Positions 5,601 through 12,005 of a stretch of 49,073 nt of DNA are shown piece by piece. The notes under the pieces were generated by a model. It was not told the origin of the DNA. It saw only the letters and a list, made by a program, of their open reading frames with translations, and did not search any database. The stretch lies in NCBI GenBank assembly GCA_003577145.1, contig QEUP01000030.1, forward strand, positions 1 to 49,073, written 5' to 3'. Source of the DNA: Acidobacteriota bacterium (lineage in GTDB: Bacteria > Actinomycetota > Acidimicrobiia > Acidimicrobiales > Microtrichaceae). Within the stretch, counting starts at the first letter, position 1, and every line of letters begins with the position of its first letter. The position numbers and the translations under genes were made by a program.

Positions 5601-5998
5601 GACGAACCGTCGGATGCTGCGGCGATCCTCGGCGCTGCCGTTCCGCATCGTGTCGAGCATGGCCTCGGTGGGGAGGCGCTCAGGATCGAGGTTGGCGAGG
5701 GCGAGCGACCGGATCGTCGGCGAATCGTGGCCGAGGGCGGCAGCGAGTCGCCGGTCATCGCCACGGCAGCGGCGGCGATCAGCGCCAGCTGGTGGTGGTA
5801 GTCGCTCTGGGTGGCCAGGTCGTCGAGCAGCGGTGGCAGCGCCGGGTCACCCGCGTTGTCTCGCCCCAGAAGCGCCACCGTCCGCACCCGATCGGTGTGG
5901 TACGTCCGGTCGAGTTGGTCGAGAAGCCGCCGAAGGCGTGGCGCTCCGGGTCCCTGCTGCACGATCACCGTCGTGCGGCGATGATCGGCGTGCAGCAT
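2608..5998 (-). pseudogene. Long helical-repeat (HEAT-like) protein, split by two frameshifts
   Basis: Three consecutive minus-strand frames join into about 1130 residues of alpha-helical repeats with no recognisable enzyme domain. Frame 1 starts at 5998 and runs through LALIAAAAVAMTGD. The pattern then continues in frame 2 (RRLAAALGHDSPTIRSLALANL), with the switch near 5735-5750. Frame 2 runs to LASQQVPIQEAAPEV, and the sense then moves to frame 3 (LAWTDEPGRALKQLLAH) near 3805-3815, ending at 2608. Repeat periodicity is kept across both junctions, so the breaks are recent mutations or assembly indels. The start is uncertain: there is no clear ribosome site, and a HyuB remnant begins within 15 bases upstream. 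Function is unknown. Confidence 0.6.
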
Positions 5999-6012
5999 TC
6001 ACACGTGCGCCC

Positions 6013-6277: not shown

Positions 6278-6295
6278 CGTACTATCATACGACCA
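6278..6295 (+). promoter_or_regulatory. Leaderless promoter and operator of the vapBC-type pair
   Basis: CGTACTATCATACG (6278-6291) is an imperfect 14-bp palindrome that contains a TATCAT -10-like hexamer (6283-6288). The antitoxin ATG begins six bases later, so transcription would start at or next to the ATG. A ribbon-helix-helix antitoxin binding this palindrome would block the promoter. Inferred from sequence only. Confidence 0.4.
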
Positions 6296-6561
6296 TGCCG
6301 AAGGAGAAGGTGACGCTCACACTCGACACCGAGCAACTCGAGGAGCTCCGCTCGCTCATCGATGCGCGGAGTCTGTCGTCGACGGTCGACCAAGCGGTGG
6401 GTGCCTATCTGTCCCGGCTCCGGCACCTCCGAGCTGTCGACGGGTGGCTCGCCGAGCTCGAGGCCGAGCATGGCCCGGTCGACCCGGAGACGCTCGAGTG
6501 GGCCGCGCGCATCGTGGACGACTGGGCATCCACCGGTGACCGACCGGCGAAGGCCGGTTGA
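6295..6561 (+). CDS. VapB-like ribbon-helix-helix antitoxin
   Basis: 88 residues. The N-terminus (KVTLTLDTEQLEELRSLIDA) is a ribbon-helix-helix DNA-binding start: one beta strand then a helix. A second helix (SLSSTVDQAVGAYLSRLR) and an acidic tail that would wrap the toxin follow. The stop codon directly abuts the GTG of the PIN toxin gene. The ATG has no Shine-Dalgarno but has a TATCAT box six bases upstream, so the mRNA is probably leaderless. CcdA/ParD-like labels would also fit; the antitoxin role comes from context. Confidence 0.75.
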   Translation: MPKEKVTLTLDTEQLEELRSLIDARSLSSTVDQAVGAYLSRLRHLRAVDGWLAELEAEHGPVDPETLEWAARIVDDWASTGDRPAKAG

Positions 6562-6969
6562 GTGCTCCTGCTCGACAGCGAGGCCATCTCGTCGGTTGCC
6601 CACGGGCCGGACCTCCGCCGGGATCGGGTCCGAGCACTCGTGATGGAGATGCGCTCGCGGGACCTGCCGGTCGCAACGGTCGCGGCTGTCCTCGCCGAGG
6701 TGGTCCGCGGTCGACCGGCTGATGCCGGCGTGTTCGCCGGCATGCGACGTGAGCGGGTCGAGGTCCACCCTGTCGACACTCGGACGGGCGTGCGAGCCGG
6801 CCAGCTGCTCGGAACGGCCGGGGCCGGGTCGGAGATGGCGATCGATGCCTTCCTCGTGGCCGACGCGGACCTGCGCGGAGGGGCGGTCATTGCCACATGC
6901 GACACCGGCGACCTGAGACGCCTTGCATCCGTGGCACAGCGCGTTCGAATCGCCGATCTCGATGGGTGA
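6562..6969 (+). CDS. VapC-like PIN-domain toxin
   Basis: 135 residues with the PIN nuclease acidic set: D5 (LLLDSEAIS), E46 (VLAEVV), D95 (MAIDAFLVA) and D114/D117 (TCDTGDL). PIN toxins of the VapC family are Mg2+-dependent RNases that cleave tRNA or rRNA and are inhibited by the cognate antitoxin. The GTG start directly follows the antitoxin TGA, so translation is coupled. Length is normal and all acidic positions are present. Confidence 0.8.
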   Translation: MLLLDSEAISSVAHGPDLRRDRVRALVMEMRSRDLPVATVAAVLAEVVRGRPADAGVFAGMRRERVEVHPVDTRTGVRAGQLLGTAGAGSEMAIDAFLVADADLRGGAVIATCDTGDLRRLASVAQRVRIADLDG

Positions 6970-7094: not shown

Positions 7095-7136
7095 TTGACC
7101 CATAACACGGTTTTCCTATAGGATAACCGTGTTATG
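7095..7136 (+). promoter_or_regulatory. Promoter and 36-bp palindromic operator covering the TauE start codon
   Basis: TTGACC (7095-7100), an 18-bp spacer and TAGGAT (7119-7124) form a good sigma-70-type promoter. Positions 7101-7136 form a palindrome of two 18-bp halves with one mismatched pair. It begins with CATAACACGG, has TCCTATAGGA at its centre and ends with CCGTGTTATG, the last three bases being the start codon of the exporter. The spacer, -10 box, transcription start and start codon are thus all inside one operator. The Rrf2 regulator encoded convergently at 8065-8520 is the obvious candidate ligand; that pairing is inference. Confidence 0.8.
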
Positions 7137-8045
7137 GCGGAACTCATCCTCGTCGGCTTGGCCGGCTTCGTGGCGGCGATGGTCGACGGTGCCCTGGGGA
7201 TGGGGTTCGGGCCTACCTCCTCGACGATCCTGTTGAGCACCGGGCTGCCTCCCGCGGCGGTCTCCACGACCGTGAACCTGGCAAAGGTCGTCTCGGGGCT
7301 GGCATCGGGGGTGTCGCACTGGCAGTTCCGCAACATCGACCACGGGCTGGTCCTGCGCCTCGCCGTTCCCGGCGCGCTGGGCGCGCTGATCGGCGTGACG
7401 GTGCTCGCCAACGTCGACGCCGCAACGCTGCGGCCGGTGCTGGCGGTGTTGTTGTTGCTGGTGGGGCTGCGCATGCTCCTGCGCTTCAGCAACCCCCTCC
7501 CGTCCAGACCACCAGACGCCGATGAAGTGACAGCAGACGATCCCGCCGGCGCCTTCGACTTCGACGACCGCGGTGTCACGGTGGCCGCCACCGCAGGCGG
7601 TGTCACCAACGGCCTGATCGGGGCCTGGGGACCCGTCGTGACGCCGTTCCTGTTGCACCGGGGCCTGGCGCCGCGATACGCGATTGGCTCGGTCAACACC
7701 GCGGAGGTGGCCGTGGCGACCGTCGCCGCGGGGTCGCTCATGGCTTCGGTCGGCCGAGGCGGGATCGAGATGGGGGTCGTGCTCGCCATGATGATCGGGG
7801 GCGTCGCTGCTGCGCCGCTGGCGGCTTGGATGATCCGCCACGTCCCGGCGCGGGCCATGGGCCTGGCGGTCGCCGCCCTGCTGCTGGTCACCAACGCACG
7901 CGAGATCATGGGCTGGACCGGCCTCGGGGCGAGCCGCTGGGTGTTCTACTCGCTCATCCCGTTGCTGGTGGCCGCGGCCGCGCTCGCACCGCGGTTCCGC
8001 AACGTCTCCGACGCGCTCGGTGCATCTGAGCCCTCAGTGGGGTGA
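7134..8045 (+). CDS. TauE/SafE-family anion (sulfite/organosulfonate) exporter
   Basis: 303 residues, about eight hydrophobic segments. The N-terminal half begins LVGLAGFVAAMVDGALGMGFG, the TauE/SafE repeat with its glycine-rich re-entrant motif. The second half repeats the fold (VAATAGGVTNGLIGAWGP). A short charged cytoplasmic loop (about 125-145) separates them. Family members export sulfite, sulfoacetate or related small anions across the inner membrane. The ATG at 7134 is the last part of the palindromic operator, so the gene is probably leaderless and tightly repressed. It runs convergent to the Rrf2 regulator gene. Confidence 0.85.
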   Translation: MAELILVGLAGFVAAMVDGALGMGFGPTSSTILLSTGLPPAAVSTTVNLAKVVSGLASGVSHWQFRNIDHGLVLRLAVPGALGALIGVTVLANVDAATLRPVLAVLLLLVGLRMLLRFSNPLPSRPPDADEVTADDPAGAFDFDDRGVTVAATAGGVTNGLIGAWGPVVTPFLLHRGLAPRYAIGSVNTAEVAVATVAAGSLMASVGRGGIEMGVVLAMMIGGVAAAPLAAWMIRHVPARAMGLAVAALLLVTNAREIMGWTGLGASRWVFYSLIPLLVAAAALAPRFRNVSDALGASEPSVG

Positions 8046-8064: not shown

Positions 8065-8520
8065 TCAGTGGGGTAACCAGGCGTCGGGGTTGTCCACCAG
8101 CGCCATGACCTGCGGTGGGAGGTCACCCGAGAGCAGGTCGGCAACCGTGACGTTCTCCATGACCGAGCGGACCGCGGCCCGCAAGCCCACCCAGAGCTTG
8201 TTGAGGTGCCGGCTCGTGCTCCCGTATTCGGTGTCCTCCGGGCGGCGGCCCTGGACGAGCGCCAAGGGCCCATCAACCAGGCGGGACACCTCCGCGACCG
8301 TGATCTGCTCGGCCGGCCGGCCCAGCGAATAGCCCCCCGCAGTACCCCTCTGCCCGACGATCAACCCCGCCTGGCGCAGCGACAGCAGGACGCTCTCGAG
8401 GTACCGAGGGGGGATCCCCTCGGCGGCAGCCAGCTCGTCGCGGGTCAACCGGGCCGGGTCCGCCGCGGCCAGTTGCACCAGGGCTCGCAAGGCGTAGTCG
8501 ACTCTGGCCGTGACCTGCAC
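8065..8520 (-). CDS. Rrf2-family transcriptional regulator
   Basis: 151 residues, GTG start at 8520. The N-terminal winged helix (VTARVDYALRALVQLA, then LTRDELAAAEGIPPRYLESVLLSLRQAGL and GTAGGYSLGRP) matches Rrf2/IscR/CymR proteins. The three-cysteine iron-sulfur motif of IscR/NsrR is absent (no Cys in the protein), so sensing would be CymR-like through a ligand or partner protein. It follows the MFS gene by seven bases and is therefore last in its operon. The neighbouring TauE palindrome is a likely target. Confidence 0.85.
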   Translation of the reverse strand: MQVTARVDYALRALVQLAAADPARLTRDELAAAEGIPPRYLESVLLSLRQAGLIVGQRGTAGGYSLGRPAEQITVAEVSRLVDGPLALVQGRRPEDTEYGSTSRHLNKLWVGLRAAVRSVMENVTVADLLSGDLPPQVMALVDNPDAWLPH

Positions 8521-8527
8521 GAGCCCA

Positions 8528-10279
8528 TCATGTCAGCTCAGGCGGCTCGGTCTCGGGTGGCTCGGTCTCGGGTGGCTCGGTCTCGGGTGGCTCGGTCTCG
8601 GGTGGCTCGGTCTCGGACGGCTCGGTCTCGGACGGCTCGGTCTCGGACGGCTCGGTCTCGGGTGGCTCGGTCTCGGGTGGCTCGGATCCCGCGGTCTCGC
8701 CCCCGGCACGGGCAGGCTCGTGGGGCAGGTCACGGGTGAAGGCGAGCGCCACCAACGAAAGGACCGCCGCGGCCAGCAGCCCGGCCTTGAGCGACTGGAG
8801 CTGGGCGTCCTCGTAGTCCTCGAGGATGGCCGTGCTCGTCGGCTCTTCCAGGCCGGCCTCGTCCAGCGCGGCTACGACCTCGTCGGTCGAGACGAAATCG
8901 ACTCCGGGCTCGGCCGCCACGCTGACCTGCGCGGCCACCTCGTCGTTGATCCGGTCGTCGTCTTGGATCTGGGCCACGAACGTCGAGGTCAGTCCGGCGA
9001 GGACGATGGCGCCGATCAGGGCCACGCCGAGCGACGAGCCGAGTTGCTGCCCGGTGTATTGCAGGCCGCCGGCCTCGCCCCGGCCCGATGAGTCGACCGA
9101 GGACTGGATCACGTTGCCGAGCTGGGAGGCGACCAGGCCCATGCCCACGCCGAGCAGCGCCATCGAGAGCGCGAAGGTCCTGTGAGCGAGCTCGGGTTCG
9201 ATGGTGCTGAGCAGGCCGAGCACCGCAACGCCGATCACGACCAGTCCCGTTCTGATGAGCGAGCGAGCCGAGTAGCGGGCGGCCAGCCGCGACCCCAGCG
9301 CAGAGGCCACGAGCATGGCGACCGACACCGGCAGCATCTTGATGCCCGTATCGAGCGCGTCGAGACCGAGCACCAGCTGCAGATACAGCGGGATGGTGAA
9401 GAAGATCCCCATGAGGATCAGGTTCTGGCTGAGGAGGCCCGCGAGCCCGGACCGCACGGGTGGGATGCCGAGCAGGTCGAGGTGGACCAGCGGGTCGCGA
9501 CCCGCTGCCTCACGGTGGTGCTGCCAGCGGGCGAAGAGCCAGATCACCACACCTCCGGCTGTCACCACGAAGGGAGTCAGCGAGAAGCCGAAGGGGGTGA
9601 TCGGCGAGTCCTTCGGTTGGACCCACCCCCAGGCGCCGGCCTGCAGGACGCCCAGCACGATGGTCCCGATCCCTACTGCGGAGAGGACCGCGCCGACGGC
9701 ATCGAGACGGGGGGGCCGACCCTCCAACGGAGCGTCACCTACGCGTCCGGCGAGGGCGAGGATGGCGAGGACGAGGACGACCTCACCCCAGAAGACGACG
9801 CGCCAGGACACCTCGGTGGTGGCCCACCCGCCGAGGATGGGACCAACGGCGATGCCGGCGCCGGCGACACCACCGATCACCGCGTAGGCGATGCGTCGAG
9901 GCGGCCCCTCGTAGTTGCCCGCGATGAGTGCCGCGAGCGCCGGCAGCACCAGGGCGGCACCGATCCCCTCGAGGACGGACCAACCCAGCGTCAGCACCAA
10001 CACGTTGGGCGCCGCGGCGGTGACGGCCGAGCCGCACCCGTAGATGACGAGGCCGATGACGAAGGTCCGGCGCCGGCCCATGATGTCACCGATCTTGCCG
10101 CCGGTGAGCATGAGCATTGCCATCACGAGGCTGTAGAAGGTGATGACCGCCTGGATGGTCGTCACCGTCGTATCGAAGTCCTCGACGAGCTGGCTGATCG
10201 AGACGTTCATCACGGCCTGGTCCAGCACCATGAGGAACTGGGCGACCGCCAGGGCCAGCAGTGGCCACCATCGCTTCAT
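8528..10279 (-). CDS. DHA2-family MFS drug/H+ antiporter (EmrB/QacA type) with ETEPP-repeat tail
   Basis: 583 residues. The start MKRWWPLLALAVAQFLMVLD and the pattern of about 14 membrane segments are those of the 14-TMS DHA2 drug exporters. GDIMGRRRTFV is the loop 2-3 motif and the VIGGVAGAGIAVGPILGGW region is motif C, diagnostic of antiporters. The last 50 residues are an acidic, proline-rich tail of ETEPP/ETEPS pentapeptides encoded by ten 15-bp repeats; such a tail is unusual in this family and probably disordered and cytoplasmic. It lies between the SulP gene (37 bp upstream) and the Rrf2 gene (7 bp downstream). Confidence 0.88.
   Translation of the reverse strand: MKRWWPLLALAVAQFLMVLDQAVMNVSISQLVEDFDTTVTTIQAVITFYSLVMAMLMLTGGKIGDIMGRRRTFVIGLVIYGCGSAVTAAAPNVLVLTLGWSVLEGIGAALVLPALAALIAGNYEGPPRRIAYAVIGGVAGAGIAVGPILGGWATTEVSWRVVFWGEVVLVLAILALAGRVGDAPLEGRPPRLDAVGAVLSAVGIGTIVLGVLQAGAWGWVQPKDSPITPFGFSLTPFVVTAGGVVIWLFARWQHHREAAGRDPLVHLDLLGIPPVRSGLAGLLSQNLILMGIFFTIPLYLQLVLGLDALDTGIKMLPVSVAMLVASALGSRLAARYSARSLIRTGLVVIGVAVLGLLSTIEPELAHRTFALSMALLGVGMGLVASQLGNVIQSSVDSSGRGEAGGLQYTGQQLGSSLGVALIGAIVLAGLTSTFVAQIQDDDRINDEVAAQVSVAAEPGVDFVSTDEVVAALDEAGLEEPTSTAILEDYEDAQLQSLKAGLLAAAVLSLVALAFTRDLPHEPARAGGETAGSEPPETEPPETEPSETEPSETEPSETEPPETEPPETEPPETEPPETEPPELT
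8541..8690. repeat. Ten 15-bp tandem repeats at the 3' end of the MFS gene
   Basis: The unit GGTGGCTCGGTCTCG, with three consecutive GACGGC variants in the middle, is repeated ten times in frame. On the minus strand it encodes the Glu-Thr-Glu-Pro-Pro/Ser tail of the exporter. Slippage would change tail length without a frameshift. Confidence 0.9.
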
Positions 10280-10316: not shown

Positions 10317-12005
10317 TCATTGCATGCTCCCGGGCGTGGTTGTGCGGTTCCGGAAGGCCGCCACCGCCTCGTCGAGTGTGGCGAACACGCGGTCGTGCCC
10401 GATCCGTTCCAGGAGTCCGGCCCGCTCGAGCTGTCCGGTGAGGTCGTGCTTGAGCTCGGCTACGGCGAACACGATCCCGCGATCGTCGAGCTCGGTGATC
10501 AGCTCGTCGAGCACCTGGCCGGCGGTGCTGTCGATGCGCCCGACGGCTTCGGCCTGGAGCAGGAACCACTGCGGGTGATCACCCGACCGTTCCAGCTCCA
10601 GGAGAGCGGAGTCCCGGAAGTCGTCTGCGTTGGCGAAGAAGAGAGGAGCGTCGTAGCGGTAGATGAGCAGACCGGGCTCGGTCTCGGCGCCTTCCCAGTC
10701 CTCGATGTCGTGGTAGCCGGCGAGGCCGGGCACCCGCCCGAGCACCGCGTCGTGTGGCCGGGCTATGCGGGCGATGAGGTCGATCACCGAGAGGACGATG
10801 GCGATGACCACACCCACGAGGATGTCGGTGAGGAGCACTCCGACGGTGGTGGCGACGGCGAGCAGGAACTCGGTGCGGCGGAACCGGAACAGGCGCAGGA
10901 ACTCGGGGACATCGATCAGCTTCGTCGCGGCCCAGATCACCAGCGCGCCCAGCGCGGCGTTGGGGAACCGCTCGAGCACCGGGCTCAGGAAGAAGAGGAC
11001 GGCGATCACGCAAGCGAAGGCAACAAGCGAGTAGAGCTGGGACTTCGAACCCACCGAGTCCCCGATGGTCGTGCGGCTGCCGCTGCTGCTGATGGGGAAC
11101 GCCTGGAACAGCCCGCTGCTCACGTTGGCGCAACCCAGCGCCAGGAGCTCCTGGTTGGCGTCGACGCGGGTACCCGAGCGGCCGGCGAACCCGCGGGCGG
11201 TCAACACGTTGTCGGAGTAACCGACCAGGGCTATGCCGATTGCCGCAGGGAGCAGCGACTGCAGGTCGTCAAACCCCACACTGGGGATGGCCGGTCGCGG
11301 CAGGCCCGCAGGGATGGCGCCCACGACCGACACCCCGTGACCCTCGAGGTCGAAGACCACCACCACGACGAGCGCAGCGAGGACGCTGATCAGGGGCCCG
11401 GGGAGCTTGGGGAAGAAGTGCTGGACGGCGAAGAGCAGCGCGAGGACCCCGAGCGAGAGCAGGACCGTAGCTGTGTTGGCCGTGTCGAGCTCGGAGAGGA
11501 ACTCCCCGATCTCGGCGAGGAAGCCGTCGGCCGAGATGTCGATACCGGACACCTTGCCGAGCTGGCCGACGATCATGATGAGCGCGACGCCGGCGAGGTA
11601 GCCCACCAGGATCGGCCGTGAAAGCAGGTTGGCGAGGAAGCCGAGGCGAGCGACGAACGCCAGCACGCAGATCCCGCCGACGAGCAGCGCGGTAGCCGCA
11701 CACAGCGCCGCGTAGTCGCTCCCGTCGGCCGCGGCGAGCGGTGCCACAGCCGACGCGGTCATTATCGCGGTGGTGGACTCGGGACCGACCGAGAGCTGGG
11801 GAGACGAGCCCAACGCGGCGTAGATGACCAGCGGCGGCAGGATCGCCCACAGCCCCACGACCGGGGGGAGCCCGGCGATCTCCGCGTAGGCCATGCACTG
11901 TGGCACCAGGTAGGCGGCCACGGTGACGCCTGCCAGCACGTCGCCACGCAGCCAGGATCGGTCGTATCGGCGGAGCCGGACCAGGCCCGGCGCGAACCTG
12001 CTCAC
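10317..12005 (-). CDS. SulP-family anion permease with STAS domain
   Basis: 562 residues. The N-terminal about 400 residues are the SLC26/SulP membrane domain, including the signature LAGVTVAAYLVPQCMAYAEIAGLPPVVGLW and an inner repeat FPISSSGSRT. The C-terminal about 120 residues are a STAS domain (IYRYDAPLFFANADDF, then FLLQAEAVGRIDSTAGQVLDEL). SulP proteins carry sulfate, bicarbonate or chloride, and the substrate cannot be read here. The GTG start overlaps the TGA of the DUF2252 gene by four bases, so the two are translationally coupled. A link to the sulfur-anion exporter across the cluster is plausible. Confidence 0.88.
   Translation of the reverse strand: MSRFAPGLVRLRRYDRSWLRGDVLAGVTVAAYLVPQCMAYAEIAGLPPVVGLWAILPPLVIYAALGSSPQLSVGPESTTAIMTASAVAPLAAADGSDYAALCAATALLVGGICVLAFVARLGFLANLLSRPILVGYLAGVALIMIVGQLGKVSGIDISADGFLAEIGEFLSELDTANTATVLLSLGVLALLFAVQHFFPKLPGPLISVLAALVVVVVFDLEGHGVSVVGAIPAGLPRPAIPSVGFDDLQSLLPAAIGIALVGYSDNVLTARGFAGRSGTRVDANQELLALGCANVSSGLFQAFPISSSGSRTTIGDSVGSKSQLYSLVAFACVIAVLFFLSPVLERFPNAALGALVIWAATKLIDVPEFLRLFRFRRTEFLLAVATTVGVLLTDILVGVVIAIVLSVIDLIARIARPHDAVLGRVPGLAGYHDIEDWEGAETEPGLLIYRYDAPLFFANADDFRDSALLELERSGDHPQWFLLQAEAVGRIDSTAGQVLDELITELDDRGIVFAVAELKHDLTGQLERAGLLERIGHDRVFATLDEAVAAFRNRTTTPGSMQ

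Follow-up and report, generated by a model that had tools for sequence, protein, structure and literature searches.

A near-perfect palindrome over a tauE promoter: candidate operator of a convergently encoded, CymR-like Rrf2 regulator

What is a long, near-perfect palindrome doing across the promoter and start codon of a permease gene? The question is posed by the tauE gene of the window, that is, of the whole 49,073-nucleotide stretch of DNA analysed here. The first-pass annotation had described a 36-bp element of two 18-bp half-sites with one mismatch, running from TTGACC to the third base of the start codon. A repeat search recovered this element in a slightly longer form, 38 bp with zero spacer (arms 7100-7118 and 7119-7137; CCATAACACGGTTTTCCTA / TAGGATAACCGTGTTATGG), in which 18 of 19 pairs are complementary (95%) and T7113/T7124 is the sole mispair. 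It extends from the final base of TTGACC to the first base past the tauE ATG (7134-7136); the 36-bp form, 7101-7136, ends on the G of that codon, in agreement with the original description. It is the best ungapped palindrome of the window, scoring 16.5 as compared with 10.0 for the next and no more than 12 in eight mononucleotide-shuffled windows. A genome search for the site, suggested along with it, found this single copy at up to three mismatches in the 4.05-Mb, 68-contig assembly. We consider it likely, from the sequence comparisons that follow, that the palindrome is the operator of a convergently encoded, CymR-like Rrf2 regulator, and that tauE would be repressed through it.

Table 1. 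Positions of the promoter, operator and gene features of the window, and of dyads in related loci.
Feature	Position	Strand	Basis and remarks
-35-like box TTGACC	7095..7100	+	read from the sequence; a TTG-type box is similarly placed in 7 of 9 promoters of this operator type, window counted
Operator copy 1, conserved orientation	7098..7125	+	24.3 bits, matrix without the window
Palindrome, 38 bp, 18/19 pairs, no spacer	7100..7137		repeat search and palindrome scoring
Operator copy 2, inverted, 14-bp overlap with copy 1	7112..7139	-	25.8 bits, matrix without the window; second copy not established in other orthologues
-10 box TAGGAT, within both operator copies, 9 nt upstream of the start codon	7119..7124	+	sequence and promoter statistics
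tauE, TauE/SafE (TSUP) permease, 303 aa	7134..8045	+	Pfam PF01925, E 6.9e-34
rrf2, CymR-like Rrf2 regulator, 151 aa, GTG start, no cysteine	8065..8520	-	Pfam PF02082, E 1.1e-31
Dyad, 17-bp arms, 16 paired, around 5 nt	within L109:515-622		rrf2-tauE gap
Dyad, 12/12 paired	within L103:1301-1419		rrf2-tauE gap
Dyad, 10/10 paired	within L126:5860-6001		rrf2-tauE gap
Dyad, 9/9 paired	within L082:914-1060		rrf2-tauE gap

Two -10 candidates follow TTGACC, TAGGAT at 7119-7124 (18-bp spacer) and TATAGG at 7117-7122 (16-bp spacer). A TAGNNT motif lies 6-10 nt upstream of the start codon in 23 of 36 tauE promoters (against a mean of 1.0 and a maximum of 5 in shuffles); 4 of the 36 have a Shine-Dalgarno-like run. 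Most of these tauE-type genes are probably leaderless, and the window promoter is probably of the same kind. The nine promoters of the convergent type (the window, seven convergent loci and L081, whose contig stops inside tauE) have a common layout: besides the TTG box, an A-C-C/G-G element in the spacer (8/9) and a TAGGAW -10 box 7-9 nt upstream of the start (9/9). The palindrome had been said to cover the -10 box, the transcription start and the ATG. The first and last of these are evident in the sequence, and the element presumably overlies the transcription start as well.

A symmetric element that includes a start codon could also act in RNA, and a possible block of translation had been put forward. 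In such a mechanism, a hairpin in a transcript arriving from upstream, for example by read-through of the small gene pair at 6295-6969, would hide the start codon. The hairpin of the window is very stable (-34.8 kcal/mol, z -6.07). However, z lay between -0.60 and +0.94 in all seven orthologues that were folded, so the hairpin potential is not conserved as a regulatory hairpin would be, and at a promoter that looks leaderless the arms preceding the ATG would not normally be transcribed. A translational block would therefore need read-through RNA. The RNA mechanism was rejected as highly improbable.

Conservation of the whole palindrome was likewise rejected. Its 24-bp core, at up to three mismatches, occurs in 1 of 298 genomes of the order, the window's own, and the reversed control pattern matched in one genome (G123). 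No comparable palindrome was seen upstream of 15 other tauE-family matches. What is conserved is an operator within it. A matrix was derived from eight orthologous tauE promoters (near kin among them: L069, L070 and L081), with sites chosen by eye and the window left out. Scored with this matrix, the two strands of the palindrome take the first two places among 98,092 window positions (25.8 and 24.3 bits), the next reaching 5.5 bits, which places the window among the Rrf2-tauE operators. In leave-one-out scoring, with the matrix for each site built on the remaining eight, none of the eight relatives had a position in its locus that outscored the true operator. A lack of conservation upstream of orthologous exporters had been named as grounds for abandoning the palindrome; this applies to the 36-bp whole, whereas the inner operator is kept. 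Because the conserved right half and the -10 box share bases, some of the constraint on this half may belong to the promoter. Four later tauE-bearing loci (L135-L138) proved, by identical promoters or coordinates, to be the genomes of L077, L081, L070 and L069 again and are therefore no independent test of the operator.

As both strands of the palindrome stand at the top of the ranking, it can be read as two inverted operator copies, offset by 14 bp around a common -10 box. Copy 1 would be the inherited, conserved one, and in this lineage its right flank would have turned into its mirror image, so that copy 2 overlaps copy 1 and shares its -10 box. In the window the mirrored half reaches 10.5 bits (shuffle p 0.0005), a score that one of 16 other tauE promoters also attains. 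Its counterpart in the eight relatives is less pronounced (shuffle p 0.019-0.225, below 0.05 in four), being matched by between 1 and 9 of the same 16 promoters; conservation of the second copy in relatives is not shown by these values.

Quasi-palindrome correction by template switching is a known mutational mechanism, and the symmetry may have arisen through it: the ancestral operator would have held an imperfect inverted repeat that was then perfected, leaving copy 1 as the operator and no second functional one. This is consistent with the full mirrored half being found only in the window and with the central CCTATAGG being symmetric already in the near relative L061. Selection for symmetry would instead fit L109 and L103, which have symmetric sites of comparable length and other sequence. 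We regard this account, a compatible variant of the Rrf2 operator explanation, as a substantial possibility that falls short of an even chance.

Dyads of other sequence than the window's lie in the rrf2-tauE gap of four of the eight loci in which both genes are on the same strand (L109, L103, L126 and L082). Among 15 tauE upstream regions (eight same-strand, six divergent and the window), five including the window reached p ≤0.02 under a Markov null, and ten, including all six divergent ones, had no dyad at p 0.05. L103, L109 and L126 are close on the Rrf2 tree, so the independent dyad cases are few. In a dyad scan of 36 orthologue promoters, nine fell below p 0.05 and the combined p was 5e-5, a result on which we place little weight because the promoter rows are related and the window is among them. 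Long symmetry that recurs with different letters would fit operators that follow their regulator.

The partner of such an operator was sought in the gene neighbourhood of tauE. Loci were collected by a contig scan with a six-protein tauE alignment, and the best 80 of 275 were used; 32 are from Staphylococcus or other Bacillales, and the other 48 are mostly Actinomycetota by their titles, many of them Acidimicrobiia or Acidimicrobiales. In tblastn searches of these best 80 of 275, Rrf2 adjoins tauE in at least 21 loci, seven convergent as in the window, six divergent and eight with rrf2 upstream in the same orientation, all outside Bacillales; the figure is a lower bound because some contigs end near tauE. 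Such an Rrf2 match was absent from the available DNA at the other 59 of the best 80, including all 32 Bacillales loci. The Rrf2 tree groups by arrangement (convergent including the window, 99/98; divergent, 81/76; same-strand, weakly, 77/41), with operator types that vary from one Rrf2 lineage to another. Six genomes with an Rrf2 of at least 63% identity all have tauE adjoining it, in G180 as only the 3' part of tauE at a contig end. As expected, the end of a different contig of the L081 genome has a 65%-identical Rrf2 gene convergent to the 3' remainder of a tauE, the part that is missing from the first contig. Three of the records with Acidimicrobiia-type tauE loci (L053, L054 and L064) are titled Bifidobacterium breve, and these titles look misassigned.

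The derived operator pattern, at up to one mismatch, found the tauE site in 4/4 whole genomes, with one extra match (in G320); the reversed control gave one match in the same four (in G000). Going by this search, the window Rrf2 apparently has one local target and not a regulon. Autoregulation of rrf2 through the same site was rejected, since no operator-type site was seen upstream of rrf2.

Long near-perfect palindromes suit many regulator families, and the operator could belong to a TetR, GntR, ArsR or similar protein encoded elsewhere, the Rrf2 neighbour being incidental. Consistent with this, L064 (near 5960-6001) and L066 (near 1500-1541) have a convergent-type operator (26.4 and 25.5 bits) and no Rrf2 adjoining tauE. 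In searches of these two genomes for a closely matching Rrf2 at E 1e-25, L064 yielded only a 46%-identical one elsewhere and L066 none. The recurrence of Rrf2 beside tauE in three arrangements, with an operator type that tracks the Rrf2 lineage, argues against an incidental neighbour. So do 13 Rrf2 loci of 46-52% identity that lack tauE and have no site scoring over 7.7 bits within 1.1-1.5 kb on each side, a pattern that is not general for this identity range, as divergent-type Rrf2 proteins of 43-50% do adjoin tauE. We consider a regulator of another family quite improbable. The block of transcription initiation that had been claimed for the palindrome thus gains support on two counts: the operator overlies the core promoter, and Rrf2 is likely to bind it.

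The regulator gene is convergent with tauE, 19 bp separating the two stop codons. It had been annotated as an Rrf2 protein without iron-sulfur cysteines, and this was borne out. PF02082 matches residues 4-130 with 110.2 bits (cut-off 30) and TIGR00738 matches with 111.4 bits (cut-off 73.3), and the 151 residues include no cysteine, unlike the Fe-S-type proteins IscR, NsrR and RirA. Cysteine is absent from 18 of 22 aligned Rrf2 proteins, the window's counted, and the remaining four each contain one or two, at positions that are not shared.

CymR of Bacillus subtilis and Staphylococcus aureus, a member of the same family, is described as a repressor of sulfur metabolism that controls sulfur transporters (PMC5480029, PMC2940859), and its signal in Bacillales as O-acetylserine acting via CysK (PMC2940859). 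CymR structures are the second and fifth PDB sequence matches of the window Rrf2 (3t8r and 2y75; S. aureus and B. subtilis). The CymR model NF047409 is its best NCBIfam equivalog, though at 72.8 bits, well below the cut-off of 195; a further difference from CymR is the apparent absence of a regulon beyond the local target. A CymR-like Rrf2 protein has been noted in Rhodococcus (PMC8557817). For another actinobacterial Rrf2 protein, RsrR of Streptomyces venezuelae, repression by a block of the polymerase site, through two neighbouring 11-3-11 inverted-repeat sites, has been suggested (PMC5015018). RsrR is a [2Fe-2S] protein with a single base pair between its two sites, whereas the window copies overlap around one -10 box.

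The direction of transport was also considered, as the palindrome had been taken to control export of a sulfur anion. TauE belongs to the TauE/SafE family (PF01925, 118 bits, cut-off 32.6); no NCBIfam family matched at E 0.001. No PDB entry matched the TauE alignment at E 0.01, which leaves no solved relative from which to read the direction of transport. Exporters are known among TauE proteins. In Bacillales, 24 of 32 tauE loci (within the best 80 of 275) also have homologues of cysJ, cysI, sirA, sat and cysC, and in L085 tauE sits directly between siroheme genes and sat; these names are our reading of the L085 sequences and not family-search calls. When five assimilation proteins of Staphylococcus were used as tblastn queries against the Actinomycetota tauE loci, the sole matches were to cysC, in L055 and L113, and weakly to cysI, in L102; SulP as a query had a single homologue, in L076. 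The context there is therefore nearly silent on direction.

The kin of the regulator offer a second view. The same thirteen loci of Rrf2 kin without tauE were viewed, and ten neighbouring ORFs from seven of them were searched against NCBIfam. Sulfate/sulfonate-type ABC transporter genes adjoin Rrf2 kin of about 47-52% identity in five of the seven checked loci (L020, L022, L023, L026 and L142, all from the same order). In L142 these are a sulfate-binding protein above cut-off and a CysT fragment, and in L022 an SsuA above cut-off. The remaining matches are all below cut-offs: an SsuA fragment in L020, a CysA-like fragment in L026, and an SsuC/TauC/SaoP-like permease with an ATPase in L023. The neighbours in L141 are of phosphate type, PstB (above cut-off) and a fragment of PstS, and in L027 the neighbour is a glycolate-oxidase-like gene. 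Inspection by eye of the other six loci (L139, L140, L143, L021, L024 and L025) revealed no sulfur transporter.

A detoxification switch, in which TauE exports sulfite or sulfonate and Rrf2 senses it, would have a precedent in the cst cluster of S. aureus, where tauE is described as a putative sulfonate/thiosulfate efflux gene, 43-fold up in a cstR mutant (PMC5480029). The rarity of assimilation genes in the Actinomycetota tauE loci is also compatible with it. The assimilation context of tauE in Bacillales and the ABC transporters beside Rrf2 kin point the other way, and sulfate importers of the TSUP/TauE family have been reported. Two of these, CysZ of Corynebacterium glutamicum and TK06_RS10770 of Pseudomonas fluorescens, take up sulfate (PMC5840216, PMC11535334); they are comparable with the window TauE by family only, and the available descriptions of them mention no Rrf2 pairing. 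TauE of Cupriavidus necator, a sulfite exporter (PMC5840216), is comparable by name only. We judge a detoxification switch unlikely, and the export claim doubtful. Sulfate or another oxyanion of sulfur is the probable substrate of the window TauE, and transport may well be inward, not outward. Uptake under sulfur limitation, with repression when sulfur is ample, would be the more likely logic, which calls into question the direction implied by the annotation 'sulfite exporter'.

Taken as an Rrf2 operator, the palindrome would be bound by one or more Rrf2 dimers spanning the promoter from the -35 box to the start codon, and RNA polymerase would thereby be stopped. By analogy with CymR in Bacillales, a change in a sulfur signal would release Rrf2 and allow tauE to be made. 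The locus is probably a dedicated, CymR-like sulfur-source switch. Control of sulfur transport by CymR is known in Bacillales; the Rrf2-tauE pairing appears new, for a known kind of switch. We recognised no report of this pairing in Actinomycetota among open-licence papers; both words, Rrf2 and tauE, occur in PMC5480029, PMC6299908 and PMC3877243. A mostly cysteine-free Rrf2 lineage would thus gain a concrete operator and target across Actinomycetota, and the natural operator variants, which differ by regulator lineage, make Rrf2 operator specificity testable by swapping.

A bolder view, which we hold to be rather unlikely, is that of a family of one-target Rrf2 switches whose operators drift by lineage yet settle on long near-perfect dyads. 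Here, two dimers on two overlapping copies with one -10 box would lock the promoter, start point and start codon of this leaderless gene, and the symmetry would also silence read-through RNA through a start-codon hairpin.

Other features of the window lie close by. The two adjacent small genes at 6295-6969, just upstream (88 and 135 aa), are toxin-antitoxin-like in size and layout, with no Pfam or NCBIfam match at E 0.001. Beyond rrf2, the second gene, after a gene for an MFS transporter, encodes a SulP-type permease (10317-12005; TIGR00815, 455.6 bits, above cut-off). The MFS gene ends 7 bp before rrf2, and tandem repeats at 8555-8690 encode its C-terminus, a Glu-Thr-Glu-Pro-Pro/Ser tail.
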